Below, piece after piece: positions 26,361 through 33,567 of a stretch of DNA of 64,000 bases. The stretch is from NCBI GenBank assembly GCA_026415035.1, contig JAOAHX010000001.1:62001-126000 (forward strand). The letters run 5' to 3'. The notes under the pieces are model-generated. The model saw nothing but the letters and a program-made list of their open reading frames with translations. It did no database searches and was not told the origin of the DNA. Each line of letters begins with the position of its first letter. Within the stretch, counting starts at the first letter, position 1. The DNA is from Thermodesulfobacteriota bacterium. GTDB lineage: Bacteria; Desulfobacterota; BSN033; UBA1163. The translations under genes were made by a program, and so were the position numbers.

Positions 26361-27332
26361 TCACCCTCCCTGGGCCTGGGATCGGCCGGTCGAATGGAAG
26401 ATTCTCAAAGGTCGTAAAACCGACTGGCCGGGGTCAGCGGGATCGATCCCATCGGCCCTCAAGGCCGTCTCCAAAATCGCCACCAATCCCAGGTGGGGGG
26501 ATGTCATGCGGATCTTCTGCCCTTTTTCAAAAGGGGGGAGAAGGGGTTGGGGAAGCAAATCCCCGACGCGTAGCTCCTGTCCCTGCCGTACCTTTCGAAT
26601 CAGCCGCTCATCCCCGACCATCTCGGGAAGATCCTCCAGGGCCTCCCTCAGAGGGATCAGATGCGGAAGAAGCTCCCTTGCCTGACCCATGGCCCTCAAT
26701 CGCTCGATCGAAAGGGCCTTTTCGAGGGTAAACGGTCCGCTCCGGGTCCGTCTCAGCGAGACGAGGTGAGCCCCACATCCCAAATGCTGTCCGATGTCCC
26801 TTGCCAGGGCCCGGATGTAGGTCCCCTTGGAACAGGAGACCCTAAAAAGGACGATCGGAAGCGCGACGTGATCGACCTCCAGTTCATGGATCACCACCAC
26901 CCTCGGCCGCCTTTCGATCTCCAACCCCTTTCGGGCGATCTTGTAGAGCGGCCTTCCTCCTACCTTCACTGCAGAAAACATGGGAGGGACCTGTTCAATC
27001 TCTCCACGAAAGGAGCGAAAGACGGCCTCGATCCGCTCCGGGGTGAGGTCCTCCCACGGTTTTCGCCGGACGATGTCTCCCGTGAGGTCATCGGTCCGGG
27101 TCTCCTCACCGACCTTGAGCGCTCCCTCGTAGGCCTTGGGCTCCTCCGGCAGAAAGGGGATCAGCTTGGTGCCCTCGTTCAAGGCCACAGGGAGAAGGCC
27201 CGTAGCAAAGGGATCGAGGGTCCCTACATGGCCGGCCTTTCGGATCGAGAACCTGGACTTGATCTCCCGGACCACATCGAGAGAGGTGAGGCCCTCGGGT
27301 TTATCCACGAGGAGGAGACCGTCAATCCTCAT
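26361..27332 (-). CDS. truB: tRNA pseudouridine-55 synthase TruB
   Basis: Makes pseudouridine at position 55 in the T loop of tRNAs. The 323-residue protein has LLVDKPEGLTSLDVV, the catalytic motif GTLDPFATG (Asp40), YEGALKVGEETRTDDLTG, and GTYIRALARDIG, followed by a C-terminal PUA-like domain. Residues 261-272 (PQPLLPPFEKGQ) are encoded by a palindromic G/C-tract element and look like an in-frame insertion in the PUA region. It overlaps rbfA by 11 bp. Confidence 0.95.
   Translation of the reverse strand: MRIDGLLLVDKPEGLTSLDVVREIKSRFSIRKAGHVGTLDPFATGLLPVALNEGTKLIPFLPEEPKAYEGALKVGEETRTDDLTGDIVRRKPWEDLTPERIEAVFRSFRGEIEQVPPMFSAVKVGGRPLYKIARKGLEIERRPRVVVIHELEVDHVALPIVLFRVSCSKGTYIRALARDIGQHLGCGAHLVSLRRTRSGPFTLEKALSIERLRAMGQARELLPHLIPLREALEDLPEMVGDERLIRKVRQGQELRVGDLLPQPLLPPFEKGQKIRMTSPHLGLVAILETALRADGIDPADPGQSVLRPLRIFHSTGRSQAQGG
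26517..26552. repeat. palindromic G/C-tract element inserted in frame within truB
   Basis: The stretch contains CCCTTTTTCAAAAGGGG plus flanking G-runs and encodes PQPLLPPFEKGQ of TruB on the minus strand. The pattern (C-run, TTTTTCAAAA, G-run) resembles the intergenic hairpin at 49810-49829. It suggests a mobile palindromic repeat tolerated inside a gene. Confidence 0.5.
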
Positions 27333-27690
27333 CCTTCCCCTCCCCCTCTTGCCGATGTAAGGCGTGGAAGACCTGACCGATCCGGACCGAATATTCGATG
27401 GAAGGATCGAACTCGAAGCGTAATTCGGGCGTGTGGCGAAGGTTGACCCGCCTGGCCAGCTCCCGCCGGATGTACCCCTTGGCGCTGTTCAAACCCTCCA
27501 ACGCCCTTTCCCTCTCTTCGATGGTCCCGGGGACGCTGAAGCGGATCCTCGCCAAGCGGAAGTCTCCGGTGAGTTTCACCCGCGTGATGGTCACCTGTTC
27601 TACCCGGGGGTCCTTGACCGTCCTGAGAAACAGCTCGGCCACTTCCTTCCGGATCAAATCCGCCACCCTGTCGATGCGTTTCCCTTCCAT
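27322..27690 (-). CDS. rbfA: ribosome-binding factor A
   Basis: Cold-shock-type factor in 30S maturation. The 122-residue product starts GKRIDRVADLIRKEVAELFLRTVKDPR and has the KH-like core with LNSAKGYIRRELARRVNLRHTPELRF. It lies downstream of infB and a DUF503 gene and upstream of truB, the usual order. Confidence 0.95.
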   Translation of the reverse strand: MEGKRIDRVADLIRKEVAELFLRTVKDPRVEQVTITRVKLTGDFRLARIRFSVPGTIEERERALEGLNSAKGYIRRELARRVNLRHTPELRFEFDPSIEYSVRIGQVFHALHRQEGEGKDED

Positions 27691-27766
27691 GCCTTTCTTC
27701 GGGAGGTGAGAACGACCCCCTCCCCCTCATTTTAAACCCTTGATCATCTCCTCGGGTCCCAAAGGC

Positions 27767-28054
27767 TTACACGGAGAGAATTTCCATCTCCGTGTGGATG
27801 AGCTCTCCGAGGCTCATCCGCTCGATATAATCGATCACCTTGTCCAGACTGGAGTTGATATGCCTTCGATCGTTCCCCACCGTGCATATCCCGATCTGAG
27901 CCCTTTGCCAGAGATCGTGATCCCCGACCTCCGAGATGGACACGTTGAACCGGTGCCTCACCCTGTCGATGATCTTCCTGAGGACGTGGCGCTTTCCCTT
28001 CAGGGAGTGATTCTCGGGGATACGAAGATCGACTTGGCAGATTCCAATCACCAT
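27767..28054 (-). CDS. DUF503 (YlxP-like) family protein
   Basis: A 95-residue protein matching the DUF503 pattern: VIGICQVDLRIPENHSLKGKRHVLRKI, FNVSISEVGDHDLWQRAQIG and a C-terminal helix before the EMEIL end. The family is almost always found between infB and rbfA, and a link to ribosome assembly is suspected but its biochemistry is not settled. GGAGGG precedes the ATG. Confidence 0.88.
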   Translation of the reverse strand: MVIGICQVDLRIPENHSLKGKRHVLRKIIDRVRHRFNVSISEVGDHDLWQRAQIGICTVGNDRRHINSSLDKVIDYIERMSLGELIHTEMEILSV

Positions 28055-28081
28055 CGCTTCCCTCCCGCAGGACCCTTCCCG

Positions 28082-30736
28082 TTAGGTTAAACGGGGACGG
28101 ACCTCCTCCATCTCGTAAGACTCGATGATATCTCCGGGTTTGATGTCGTTAAAATTCTCCATCCAGATCCCGCATTCCAGACCCTGGGTACACTCCTTCA
28201 TGTCGTCTTTGAATCTCCGGAGGGAGGAGATCTTCCCGTTGTAGATCACGACATTGTCTCGGAGCAGTCTGGCGTGGGAACCCCGGACGACCTTTCCATC
28301 GGTGATGATGCTGCCGGCCACCACGCCCACCTTCCGGATGTTGAAGAGCTGGAGGACCTGGGCCCTCCCCAAGATATGCTCCCGATAGGTGGGCTCCAAG
28401 AGCCCTTCCATGGCCTTCTTGATGTCCGAAATGGCATCGTAGATGACAGAATAGGTCCGGAGGTCGACCTTCTCTTGCTCGGCGAGGGCCTGGGCCTTCG
28501 GCACCGGTCGAACGTTGAACCCGATGATGACGGCGTTTGAGGCAGAGGCCAGGTTGACGTCGGTCTCCGTGATGCCGCCCACGCCGTCGTGGATGATGTT
28601 CACCTTGACTTCGTCCGTGGAGAGTTTTTTCAGGGCCTCTTTCATCGCCTCGATCGACCCCTGAACATCCGCTTTGAGGACCACGTTCAGTTCCTTGATC
28701 TCCCCCTTCTTGATCTTTTCGTAGAGCTCTTCGAGGGAGACCTTGCTCAGCTTGGCCAGCTCTTTAGACCGGATCTTCTCCTGACGGTAGAGGCTAATTT
28801 GTCTTGCGATTCTCTCGTCCGGGACGACGATAAAGGCCTCCCCGGCCTCCGGGACGTCGCTAAACCCCAGCACCTCCACCGGCGTGGAGGGTCCGGCCTC
28901 GTCCATCTTCTGCCCCTTGTCGTTGAGCATGGCCCTCACTTTGCCGTAGTGGGCCCCTGCAAGGAAGACATCGCCTGGCCTGAGGGTCCCTTCCTGAATT
29001 AGCACCGTCGCCACAGGACCTCGGCCTTTATCCAGTTTGGATTCGATCACCACGCCCCGGGCAGGCTTGTTCGGGTTGGCTTTCAGTTCCAGGATTTCGG
29101 CCTGGAGTAGGATCAACTCCAGAAGCTCTTTGATCCCGATCTTCTGCTTGGCCGAGATCTCGGCAAAAAGGGTCGTCCCGCCCCACTGCTCAGGGACCAA
29201 TCCCAGTTCCGACAGCTCCTTTTTCACCTTTTCCGGATTGGCATTGGGTTTGTCAATCTTGTTGATGGCCACGACGATCGGAACCTTCGCGGCCCTGGCG
29301 TGGTCGATGGCCTCTTTCGTCTGGGGCATCACACCATCGTCGGCCGCCACCACCAGGACCACGACATCGGTCACCTGAGCCCCTCGGGCCCGCATGGCCG
29401 TGAAGGCCTCGTGACCAGGGGTATCGATGAAGACGACCCTCCCGTGGTCGAGATGGACATCATATGCCCCGATATGTTGGGTGATGCCACCGGCCTCTCC
29501 CTCGACGACGTTCGTTTTGCGGATCGCATCGAGGAGCATGGTCTTTCCGTGGTCCACATGTCCCATGATGGTAACGACAGGGGGACGGGGTCTCAAATCC
29601 TCGGGCCGGTCTTCCTTTCTTTCGAGGATCTCCTGCTGTTCGATGGAGACCCGCTCGACCTCATACCCGAATTCGCTGGCCGCTAAGGAGGCGACATCGG
29701 GATCGATCATCTGATTGATCGTCGCCATCACCCCGATGTCCATCAACTTTTTGATCACATCGGATCCCTTCACCCCCATTCGTTTGGCGAGATCGCCCAC
29801 CGAGATGGCCTCGGATATCCGGATGATCCTCTTGATCGGCTTGGGGACGGTGATCTCCGGCTTCTGGGAGGTTTGGACCACCAGCTTCTTCTTCACGGGC
29901 TTGAAGGGCCTCGGGGTTGGTATCTCGGGTTCGACCTCGGGGGGTTTCTTATCTTCCGTCTCATCCAGGAAGAAGTCCTCTTCCTGGATCCTCCTCTCCT
30001 CGATCTGTTTTCTCTTCTTCAAGACCCCGATCTTCTTGGATTGGAGGAGCTCCTCTTTGGTGAGGAATTTGGCACCCAATTTTTTGAGGGTCTCGGCGCT
30101 TCCCTTCTCCTCGACCAGGGTCTTCTTCGCCTTTTTGACTTCCTTCTCGGCTTCGACCTCCGCCGGCGCCTTCTCTTCGGCCGAGGCCTTCTCCTGGGAG
30201 AGGTCTCGAATCTCGACCTTCATCCCCGTTACCTCTCCTTCCACTTTGACCACTTTTTCTACCGGTGGCTCTGTCCTCTCCGGCTTCGCCACCGCCCCCT
30301 CCGGTTTCTCCTCCTTTTTGACCTCTTTCTTGACCTCCTTCTTGGCCTCTTTCTTGGTCGCCTCCGGCGCTTTTTCTTCGCCAAGGGAAGGTTTGGCTTT
30401 CGGTCTGGCGGGCTCTTTGGGAGGTGCGGAAGGAGGTTCGGCATGAGGTTCGGCAGGCGGTGCCGGGGCCTCCAGGGTCGGTGGAGGGGAAGGTTGGGGT
30501 TGGACTTCAAGGCTTCTCGTTCTCCGCCGGATGACGGTGGGCTTAATCCGTTTCTCCACCACCTCTTTCTGATCGTCCTTTTCGATAATCCTCTCATCCG
30601 AGGGGAGAGAAGGGCTTTCCGAAGCCTCCGCCTTCTTCTCCTTGACCTTGACACCCATCTGTTTCAACTTCTTCAGGAGCTTATCATCCCCTACGCCGAC
30701 TTCGCTGGCCAGGTCGAGGACTTTTACCTTCCCCAT
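28082..30736 (-). CDS. infB: translation initiation factor IF-2
   Basis: GTPase that brings fMet-tRNA to the 30S subunit. It has 884 residues. An IF2-N domain ([26 protein letters not shown]) is followed by about 200 residues rich in Lys, Glu, Ala and Pro with repeated KKEVKKE-type stretches, and a second IF2-N motif. The G domain has [19 protein letters not shown] and [10 protein letters not shown], and domains II-IV follow. GGAGGAAAATGGG precedes the ATG. The charged repeat region is the part most likely to vary in length. Confidence 0.97.
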
Positions 30737-30845
30737 CCCATTTTCCTCCTTATCCGCCTTGCGATCGATGGATTCCTCAAATCTTCACACGATTCAGGAT
30801 CACCATGCTCGAGGAGCGTCAACCCTCTGTCGATTGTCTTCCACC

Positions 30846-31094
30846 TCAAACCGTGGGGTTTGAAAGGGTTTGGATCTGCTCCTGGCCCTCGATCCTCTTT
30901 AAGGCCAGCCTCTTTTGGGCCGCCTTTAAACAGGAGATCTCGGGACACAGATAGACCCCCTTTCCCCCCTGTCCCCGGACCAACTTGGTCTGTCCGCCCT
31001 CGAGAACGCGGACGAAACGGATCATCTCCGACTTCTTCCTTCTGGCCCGACAACCGATACACATCCGAACCGGGAGATGGCCTCTTCGACTCAT
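30846..31094 (-). CDS. ylxR: YlxR family (DUF448) RNA-binding protein
   Basis: A small basic protein usually encoded between nusA and infB. The 82 residues contain the family signature PVRMCIGCRARRKKSEMIRFVR and GGKGVYLCPEISCLKAA. The ATG overlaps the nusA stop (ATGA). YlxR-type proteins have been linked to transcription regulation and to RNase P binding. Confidence 0.92.
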   Translation of the reverse strand: MSRRGHLPVRMCIGCRARRKKSEMIRFVRVLEGGQTKLVRGQGGKGVYLCPEISCLKAAQKRLALKRIEGQEQIQTLSNPTV

Positions 31095-32560
31095 GGGGTT
31101 TTACGATCGAGGTATTCCTTGGCCGCCTGGATCAACTTTTCGGCCTTCTTTTCACCGATCCCCGGAAGCAGGGCGAGCTGTTCGACGTCGGTGCGGAGGA
31201 GATCCTGGATATGGTGGAACCCGTGGTTTTTCAGCAGATCGGAAAGTTTCTCACCCACCCCTTCCAGCATCTCGATGGGATCGTCTCCCAAGGCCTCGCC
31301 CTCCGCAGGAGCACCTCCCTCCTCCCCTTTCGAGTGGGCCAATTGGCCGGCCGTCTGGACGATCTCCGCGGCCTTTTCCCGATCGATCCCCAGAAGTCTC
31401 GCCAAGTCGTCTGGATCGGCCTCCCCTATCTCCCGGAGGGATCGGAACCCTTCTTGATGAAGGAGGCGACTTCCGACCTCTCCGATGTGAGGAAGTCTTT
31501 TGAAGCTCTCGATAATCTCGGCCGAAAGCTTCTCCATCTTCGACTCGCTCTTGATATCGATCTTCCAACCGGTCAACTTGGAGGTCAGACGTACATTCTG
31601 GCCTTTCTTGCCGATGGCCAACGAAAGCTGGTCATCCGGCACGACCACATCCATATGTCGCTCCTCCTCGTCGATATAGACCCTGGAGACCTTGGCAGGG
31701 GCCAGGGCATTGCACACATATTTGGCGGGGTCCTGGGACCAGGGGATGATATCGATCCGCTCCCCCCGGAGTTCCTGGACGACATTCTGGACCCTCGAGC
31801 CCTTCATCCCCACGCAGGCCCCTACCGGATCGACATCCCGGGCTGAACTATAGACCGAGATCTTAGCCCGCTCTCCGGGCTCCCGGGCCGCGCTGATGAT
31901 TTTGATGATCCCCTCCGCGATCTCGGGGACCTCCAATTCGAACAGCTTGATGAGAAACCCTGGATGGGTTCGGGAGAGGAAGATCTGAGGGCCCTTGGTA
32001 TTCTTCTGGACGTCGAGGATGAACGCCCGGATTCGGTCTCCTTGCCGGTACACTTCTCCGGGAATCTGCTCTTTGGCCATCAAGATGGCCTCGGCCCTTC
32101 CGATGGAGATGTAGAGGTGGCCCTTCTCCATCCGCTGAACCGTTCCGCTCACGAGGGTTCCCTTTCGATCCTTAAATTCATTGTAGACGTTCTCTCGCTC
32201 CGCATCCCGGACTTTCTGAATGATCACCTGTTTGGCCGTCTGGGCCCCGATCCGACCGAAGTCGGTGTTGAGCTTTACCCCTAAGCTGTCCCCCACCTGG
32301 GCCTCGCTGTCCAGTTCTCTGGCCTCTTCAAGCTGGATCTCCGTGGCCGGGTCGGTCACCTCCTCGACGACCTGTTTAAATTGGAACAGCTCGACCTCGC
32401 CGATCTCTTCGTTGTACCGAACTTCGATCTCCCCATGATGGCCGTACTTCTTCCGGGAGGCCGTGAGAACGGCTTGCTCGAGGGCCGCGATGATCACCTT
32501 TCGATCGATGCCTTTGTCCTTTCCGACCTGCTCGATCACATAATTCAGATTGCTTGGCAT
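31091..32560 (-). CDS. nusA: transcription termination/antitermination protein NusA
   Basis: RNA polymerase-associated factor for pausing, termination and rRNA antitermination. It has 489 residues: N-terminal domain (about 1-130), S1 domain ([25 protein letters not shown] region), KH1/KH2 ([36 protein letters not shown]) and two C-terminal helix-hairpin-helix repeats ([26 protein letters not shown]). GGAGGAGAGAGGAA precedes the ATG. The second C-terminal repeat follows a short acidic linker. Confidence 0.97.
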
Positions 32561-32576: not shown

Positions 32577-33035
32577 TTACTCCAATTCTAATCTGGCTTT
32601 GGCGATGGATTGGAGCGGAATATGAACCATGGTATCGTTGACGTTGAGTTCGATGCCCTGATCGACCACCCTCATGAGCCTGCCTTTAAAATGGCGCTGG
32701 TTGCCGATGGGCTCGTTCGTGCTCACCTGGATCAGCCGGTTTTGGTACCTCAGAAAATCCTTCCTGGACTTGAGGGGCCGGGTCAACCCTGGGGAAGAGA
32801 CCTCCAAGCGATAAGGATTGGCGATGAGATCCTCCACATCCAGGATCCTGCTCAGGGTTTGACTGACTCGGCTACAATCGTCCAATGTCACCCCGCCTTC
32901 CTTGTCGAGGTAGAGGCGAAGGACCCACCCCATCGCCTCCCTTCGATATTCGATCTCCACGCACTCCATCCGCTCCTCTTCAAGGATGGGGGTGAGAAGC
33001 TCGGATACCCGCTGGATGATGGACTCGCGGGACAT
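32577..33035 (-). CDS. rimP: ribosome maturation factor RimP
   Basis: Needed for 30S maturation. The 152-residue protein has the RimP pattern: LTPILEEERMECVEIEY, LRLYLDKEGGVTLDDCSRVSQTLSRILDVED, and YRLEVSSPGLTRPLKSRKDF. It is the first gene of the rimP-nusA-ylxR-infB operon. A terminator-like hairpin lies 27 bp upstream of its ATG. Confidence 0.95.
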   Translation of the reverse strand: MSRESIIQRVSELLTPILEEERMECVEIEYRREAMGWVLRLYLDKEGGVTLDDCSRVSQTLSRILDVEDLIANPYRLEVSSPGLTRPLKSRKDFLRYQNRLIQVSTNEPIGNQRHFKGRLMRVVDQGIELNVNDTMVHIPLQSIAKARLELE

Positions 33036-33061
33036 GGACTCCCCTTTCCCTCAAGGGCTAT

Positions 33062-33092
33062 AAAAAAAGCGGGCAACCCAAGCCCGCTTTTT
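33062..33092 (-). terminator. intrinsic terminator (attenuator) in the rimP-nusA-infB leader
   Basis: An 11-bp stem (33064-33074 with 33082-33092, GC core GCGGGC/GCCCGC) with a 7-nt loop is followed on the minus strand by seven T residues. No gene upstream on that strand needs this terminator, and it sits between a good promoter and rimP, so it is best read as a leader attenuator. Confidence 0.75.
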
Positions 33093-33114
33093 CAGCAGAC
33101 CCTCATTATCAACT

Positions 33115-33145
33115 ATTATATACTACACTTTTTTTACAAATGCAA
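33115..33145 (-). promoter_or_regulatory. promoter of the rimP-nusA-infB operon
   Basis: Read on the minus strand: TTGCAT (33145-33140) and TATAAT (33120-33115), with a 19-bp spacer, or TATATA with a 17-bp spacer. The region is strongly AT-rich compared with its surroundings. Transcription would begin near 33108, giving a leader of about 70 nt that contains the 33062-33092 hairpin. Confidence 0.6.
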
Positions 33146-33234
33146 GCCGTTTCGAGAAGATTTCCTCCCGGGAGGTTCGGGCTTCCTCGGCGATCCCGAA
33201 GAGGAAAGGCGAGGGGGCCCCCTTCATCGACCCA

Positions 33235-33567
33235 TTAATCCAACTGGTCCAGGGAGGGAGGTGGGGTGGACCCGGGCCCACGGAGGATCTCAATTTCGCG
33301 GCTCAGTCTGCGGATCATCCGCTCGTTCTGCCGAAGGGATCGTTTGAGCTGATATCTCTGGTAAAAATCTCCAATCCCCCCGATTAAGATCCCGAGAAAC
33401 ACGGAGAGGAGAATGATGAGAAAGAGGGGAAGGTGAGGGGCCTCCCAGCTTCGATCGTACAGGGGATAAAGGCCAAACCGGAGAGAGACCTCCGCCCGGT
33501 TCTGGAGGGAAAAAAGGATGACAAAGACGAAGACGATCATCATCAGAATGGTTTTGACCCAGCTCAT
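33235..33567 (-). CDS. lapA: LapA-like (DUF1049) membrane protein
   Basis: A 110-residue protein with two transmembrane helices (about 5-22 and 47-66), the family segment FSLQNRAEVSLRFG and a basic, coiled-coil-like C-terminus. In E. coli LapA works with LapB in lipopolysaccharide assembly. The start at 33567 has AAGGAG 7 nt upstream; the longer open frame reading upstream to 34263 is an out-of-frame overlap with the HIT gene. Confidence 0.8.
   Translation of the reverse strand: MSWVKTILMMIVFVFVILFSLQNRAEVSLRFGLYPLYDRSWEAPHLPLFLIILLSVFLGILIGGIGDFYQRYQLKRSLRQNERMIRRLSREIEILRGPGSTPPPSLDQLD

Follow-up and report, generated by a model that had tools for sequence, protein, structure and literature searches.

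In the window, as the 64,000-nucleotide stretch of DNA analysed here is called, positions 33145 to 33062 of the minus strand can be read with moderate confidence as a promoter and an attenuator of the rimP-leader type that precede rimP-nusA-infB, with a three-segment switch in which the nascent RNA would form either helix A:B or helix B:C, and with NusA as the proposed signal. Judged by its sequence anatomy, the element is of the published rimP-leader attenuator type, and a leader terminator with possible feedback by NusA, an idea already in print, is the best-supported reading. What appears to be a new addition to the rimP leader is a conserved box, GUCUGCU, that is able to pair with the 5' arm of the terminator.

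Promoter, terminator and operon

The genes served by the leader were identified by their Pfam domains. rimP (32577 to 33035, minus strand; RimP_N and DUF150_C) is followed on the same strand by nusA (31091 to 32560; NusA_N, S1 and KH_5), the candidate feedback regulator, whose product contains all of the N-terminal, S1 and KH domains. Downstream of nusA lie ylxR, infB, a DUF503 gene, rbfA and truB (26361 to 31094, minus strand), and rimP, nusA and the genes behind them presumably form a single transcript. Upstream of the leader, a gene for a small protein that we take to be LapA-like (33235 to 33567, minus strand) ends at position 33235. The gene order and the conservation of promoter and hairpin in all 22 leaders of the class bear out the original prediction of a terminator in the rimP-nusA-infB leader.

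The promoter is of the sigma-70 type and extends from 33145 to 33117 on the minus strand, as assigned from the sequence and from its conservation in the class. It consists of the -35 element TTGCAT (33145 to 33140), a 17-nt spacer and the -10 element TATATA (33122 to 33117). The original prediction had recognized the promoter and extended it to 33115. The perfect TATAAT at 33120 to 33115 of the minus strand would imply a spacer of 19 nt, whereas the relatives favour 17 nt: all 22 class leaders have a promoter of the form TTG[CA][AG]N-17-TAWWNN, positioned 12-18 nt upstream of the box. Transcription would start near 33110. Behind the -10 element the minus strand reads GGGTCTGCTGAAAAAGCGGGCTTGGGTTGCCCGCTTTTTTT, which ends at 33062. 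Generic consensus scans for promoters and terminators listed neither the leader promoter nor the hairpin, the former because its -35 element matches TTGACA at just three of six positions and the latter because A:U pairs consume the T-run.

The intrinsic terminator of the rimP-leader type occupies 33093 to 33062 of the minus strand and is composed of GAAAAAGCGGGC, the loop TTGGGTT (33081 to 33075) and GCCCGCTTTTTTT, with GCCCGC (33074 to 33069, segment C) followed by seven U (33068 to 33062), in agreement with the strong hairpin and seven Ts noted earlier. Its 5' arm, AGCGGGC (33088 to 33082, minus strand), is segment B, which is common to the terminator and the putative antiterminator. The rimP start codon ATG is located at 33035, such that the gap between terminator and gene is 26 nt, one less than the 27 bp given before; it contains a G-rich stretch, GGAAAGGGG (33049 to 33041, minus strand), which from its sequence and its position before rimP is a likely ribosome-binding site. 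The 48-nt RNA folds with -18.9 kcal/mol (z -2.76) and the 75-nt leader with -30.7 kcal/mol (z -2.88). The hairpin was seen in 22/22 class leaders, in which 98.5% of 263 cells are paired and two pairs show double changes; none of 500 shuffles matched either the paired fraction or the covariation score. Two further readings of the leader were rejected. An extended outer stem, GGG with AGCCC, is not conserved by the relatives, and a leader peptide 5' of the hairpin (ATG AGG GTC TGC TGA) was discarded because, by eye, its frame is not kept among them.

The comparison covered the window and 52 further genomes (a rimP match was obtained in 53 of 59) together with 99 more, in total 152 of the genomes drawn by the tool, in 67 families by its numbering. 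The class set comprises 22 leaders; the 23rd class genome, G012, yielded no rimP match. Within the 330-nt stretch 5' of rimP, 133 of 152 phylum leaders contain a terminator hairpin and 106 of 152 a GGGx/xCCC stem, as against 7-14 hairpins and no GGGx/xCCC stem in five Markov-1 control sets. The hairpin pattern GGGCN{3,9}GCCCRCTTTTTT matched 126 times, in 112 of 198 genomes, and its reversed form 23 times (summed by eye). Among the 102 matches that could be placed, 79 lie no more than 500 nt upstream of rimP (76 on the rimP strand and three on the opposite strand) and 23 elsewhere; another 24 in phylum genomes could not be placed. The window's genome has a single match, at rimP. The exact sequence CTGCTGAAAAAGCGGGC occurs once in this 3.06-Mb genome, with 14 other matches at 2-3 mismatches compared with 15 for the reversed control pattern, and with one copy in the genome a dispersed repeat or regulon was rejected. 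A covariance model built from the class leaders (R1) recovered from the same genome this locus and its own reverse complement at E 1.34, with 150 of 935 first-look candidates scored. Across the 99 phylum genomes R1 matched at E 1 or better in 63, many of the matches being weak; inspection by eye assigned 14 of the 20 matches at E 0.01 or better to rimP and six to other places. The promoter-hairpin unit is thus conserved and mostly specific to the rimP leader. On the strand opposite rimP and adjoining it, the hairpin pattern occurs in G040, G077 and G191 (in G191 on the rimP strand as well), as would be expected of a two-way terminator. A 2-mismatch match on contig 35 (L002) has by eye the appearance of coding sequence.

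The conserved box and its potential pairing

Immediately 5' of the hairpin is the box GUCUGCU (33100 to 33094, minus strand), segment A, the putative antiterminator strand. The original prediction had mentioned neither this box nor the membership of the element in a named published family. All 16 leaders of the window's family have the same box sequence, whereas mean column identity is 0.38 over a 35-nt stretch upstream of the promoter. With two C-to-U changes the box copies the terminator 3' arm, GCCCGCU, imperfectly, and pairing between the box and AGCGGGC, the 5' arm (33088 to 33082), is possible and would exclude the terminator. According to folding, GAAAA (33093 to 33089, minus strand) forms the loop of this A:B hairpin and otherwise belongs to the lower terminator stem. 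The 19-nt A:B hairpin has an energy of -8.8 kcal/mol, or -10.8 kcal/mol with one extra pair.

Support for the pairing was obtained within the class. All 153 scorable cells are compatible with A:B, compared with 97.1% in shuffles, of which none of 500 reached the observed value, and 34-57% in versions slid against each other. The box becomes GUCUACU and GUUCACU in families f2 and f3, where the arm is AGUGGGC or GGUGGGC; the changes in the box are matched by changes in the arm and A:B pairing is therefore kept. At one A:B pair a double change from G-C to A-U is found in 6 of 22 class leaders, which may reflect a single ancestral event, the changes having been counted without a tree. The varying column of the 5' arm covaries also with the 3' arm of the terminator, as is expected if one strand serves two mutually exclusive helices. 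The number of A:B double-change pairs is one, reached by 444 of 500 shuffles, and that of further pair types is four, reached by all 500; three of the seven pairs are invariant in the class. The class leaders can thus form two conserved and mutually exclusive helices that have one strand in common, as in a two-state attenuator; outside the class the picture is patchy and modest.

Beyond the class, 24 of 61 families contain the box pattern T(CT|TC)RCW. The mean over 500 shuffles was 5.9 and the maximum 12; the reverse complement gave two, and sequence farther upstream 4 of 60. Since the pattern was picked after the leaders had been viewed, the count is no independent test. The box ends 8-10 nt before GGG in 22 of 38 cases. 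A plain count of 6-mers found TCTGCT in 10 of 61 families (1.4 expected), which does not rise above the most frequent 6-mer in shuffled sequences (mean maximum 10.5). A test for helices between the upstream RNA and the 5' arm was passed at p 0.1 by 14 of 61 families, where about 6 would be expected (binomial 0.002), with 6, 8 and 1 in the controls, and at p 0.05 by 6 of 61, with 3, 5 and 0 in the controls, the 5 being that of the reversed upstream sequence. With a different set of shuffles the number was 17 of 64 families, the class included. In 56 leaders with the box in register, the variable box base and its counterpart in the arm form G-C in 27, A-U in 14, G-U in 14 and A-C in one; when the 22 class leaders are subtracted, the numbers are 11, 8, 14 and 1. 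The A-C mismatch belongs to a single box, that of G120 (family f57). The distribution of the box beyond the class is patchy and the direct evidence for pairing modest. Beyond the phylum the two contigs L009 and L092 were examined. L009, filed under Blastocatellia, has at 2927-2982 a box and hairpin before rimP (GCUUGCU and AGUGGGC) that score 37.6 bits with R1.

Relation to known rimP leaders

The rimP-leader attenuator was described as a GGGc...gCCC stem with a U-stretch 4-130 nt before rimP of rimP-nusA-infB, with NusA as the preferred regulator (Naville and Gautheret 2010, PMC2965389). For the general form, the accessible part of that paper describes neither a larger conserved element nor an antiterminator that could be seen. 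The window contains the general features, namely GCGGGC...GCCCGC with seven U located 26 nt before rimP, the first gene, and the stem signature is mostly specific to this leader. It resembles the form outlined there in stem, U-stretch and position and adds to it a conserved promoter 12-18 nt upstream of a conserved box. The same text assigns to several Gammaproteobacteria a second, upstream leader terminator with its own antiterminator. The Rfam family of the gammaproteobacterial rimP leader, RF01770, has the operon and the downstream terminator motif in common with the window but did not match the window at the gathering score, nor at up to E 10 in 32950 to 33250; as a positive control it detected E. 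coli with 102 bits. Matches of the window to other Rfam families were all below the gathering score.

The E. coli operon, metY-rimP-nusA-infB, has terminators upstream of rimP as has the window, in line with the leader terminators that the original prediction mentioned for it. It differs from the window by a tRNA-fMet gene, several promoters and two leader terminators. A box common to E. coli was rejected; none was seen by eye and R1 gave a weak 19.6 bits. Feedback of NusA on the E. coli operon is cited in the available text of PMC6511841. In Bacillus subtilis, NusA-stimulated intrinsic termination in the nusA leader controls nusA (Mondal et al. 2016, as summarized in the review PMC12288461), and NusA stimulates about 75% of the intrinsic terminators (PMC12288461). 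There the feedback is reported as experimental, and the portion of the review at hand does not mention an antiterminator, whereas in the window NusA feedback is proposed by analogy. The rimP-nusA leader of Streptococcus agalactiae terminates 31 nt after the start and yields short and long RNAs from one start, for which NusA feedback was suggested (PMC4448216, in the part accessible); judged by this description, it is a very short leader like that of the window, although from another phylum. No antiterminator comparable to A:B was found in the accessible portions of the openly licensed literature on the rimP leader and on nusA antitermination.

Proposed switch and competing explanations

According to the proposed model, the nascent RNA would present in turn segment A (GUCUGCU), segment B (AGCGGGC) and segment C (GCCCGCU with the U-tract), and formation of A:B would exclude B:C. 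A:B could form before B:C because C is then still inside the RNA polymerase. With two G.U wobbles A:B is about 10 kcal/mol weaker than B:C, so that B:C would prevail if the polymerase stayed long enough at the U-tract. Folding of the nascent RNA with 8, 10 or 14 nt held by the polymerase, and with the transcription start set by assumption at 33109, made A:B the best structure throughout the U-tract, with B:C winning only later; termination would then require the strands to exchange while the polymerase pauses. NusA, encoded by the second gene, would prolong the pause, favour the terminator hairpin, or both. Abundant NusA would cause termination, whereas with scarce NusA A:B would survive and the operon would be read. 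By tipping the balance between A:B and B:C, NusA would allow the leader to sense its supply. The conserved complementarity suggests that A:B arises in the cell and acts there as an antiterminator, and NusA is proposed as the controlling signal by analogy with the systems described above.

A simpler explanation dispenses with the antiterminator: NusA would influence a weak intrinsic terminator directly, and conservation of the box would have another cause, such as a contact with NusA or RNA polymerase or a pause signal. This accords with the 37 of 61 families outside the class that have the hairpin but no recognizable box, with the general motif of Naville and Gautheret, which in the text available lacks an antiterminator (PMC2965389), with the NusA-stimulated termination reported for B. 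subtilis in the accessible part of PMC12288461, and with the weakness of the pairing test outside the class at p 0.05 (six families versus 3, 5 and 0). It is nevertheless rather unlikely. In the class, box and 5' arm are complementary in every scorable cell and changes in the box preserve pairing, a standard pair occupies the variable position in 55 of 56 boxed leaders, and at p 0.1 the reversed and reverse-complemented controls remain below the observed value.

Alternatively, the hairpin might be an ordinary leaky terminator that shields rimP from upstream transcription, such as that of the lapA-like gene ending at 33235. The lapA-like gene was indeed found upstream by tblastn at 14 of 22 class loci, and a tRNA-Gly(CCC) gene precedes rimP in 58 of 152 phylum leaders. 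However, in all 22 class leaders the hairpin is separated from the upstream region by a conserved promoter, whose transcripts must therefore cross the terminator, and the element is still present at six f2/f3 loci where no lapA-like gene was found; we regard insulation as improbable. Even less credence is given to a free small RNA of about 45 nt acting in trans. Promoter and terminator do bound a short unit, and sRNAs from the rimP leader associated with ProQ are mentioned in the available text of PMC5391140, but in the leaders read the unit stands directly before rimP and fewer than 20 nt remain outside the terminator hairpin.

As a tentative extension of the attenuator with the A:B/B:C switch, the leader of the class, of part of the phylum and of the Blastocatellia-filed contig might carry a wobble-tuned antiterminator, a three-segment kinetic switch in which NusA would choose between A:B and B:C through the time that the polymerase dwells at the U-tract; where a tRNA-Gly(CCC) gene lies upstream, the acceptor 3' strand of the tRNA could serve as segment A. 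If true, a conserved antiterminator in a leader of about 45 nt would offer a minimal system, easy to mutate, in which NusA self-control could be studied in vitro on one template.

The tRNA-Gly(CCC) gene upstream of rimP lies on the same strand and occurs in 34 of 67 families (e.g. L096, L062 and L072); in the slice of about 400-450 nt scanned in the 152 leaders no other tRNA was found. In family f30 (G049, G085 and G196), whose leaders yielded no separate terminator, tRNA-Gly is directly followed by TTATTTTATTTTTAA and then by rimP. The acceptor 3' strand of tRNA-Gly, GCCCGCU, is identical in sequence to the 3' arm of the terminator and, as seen in G059, is able to pair with the 5' arm.
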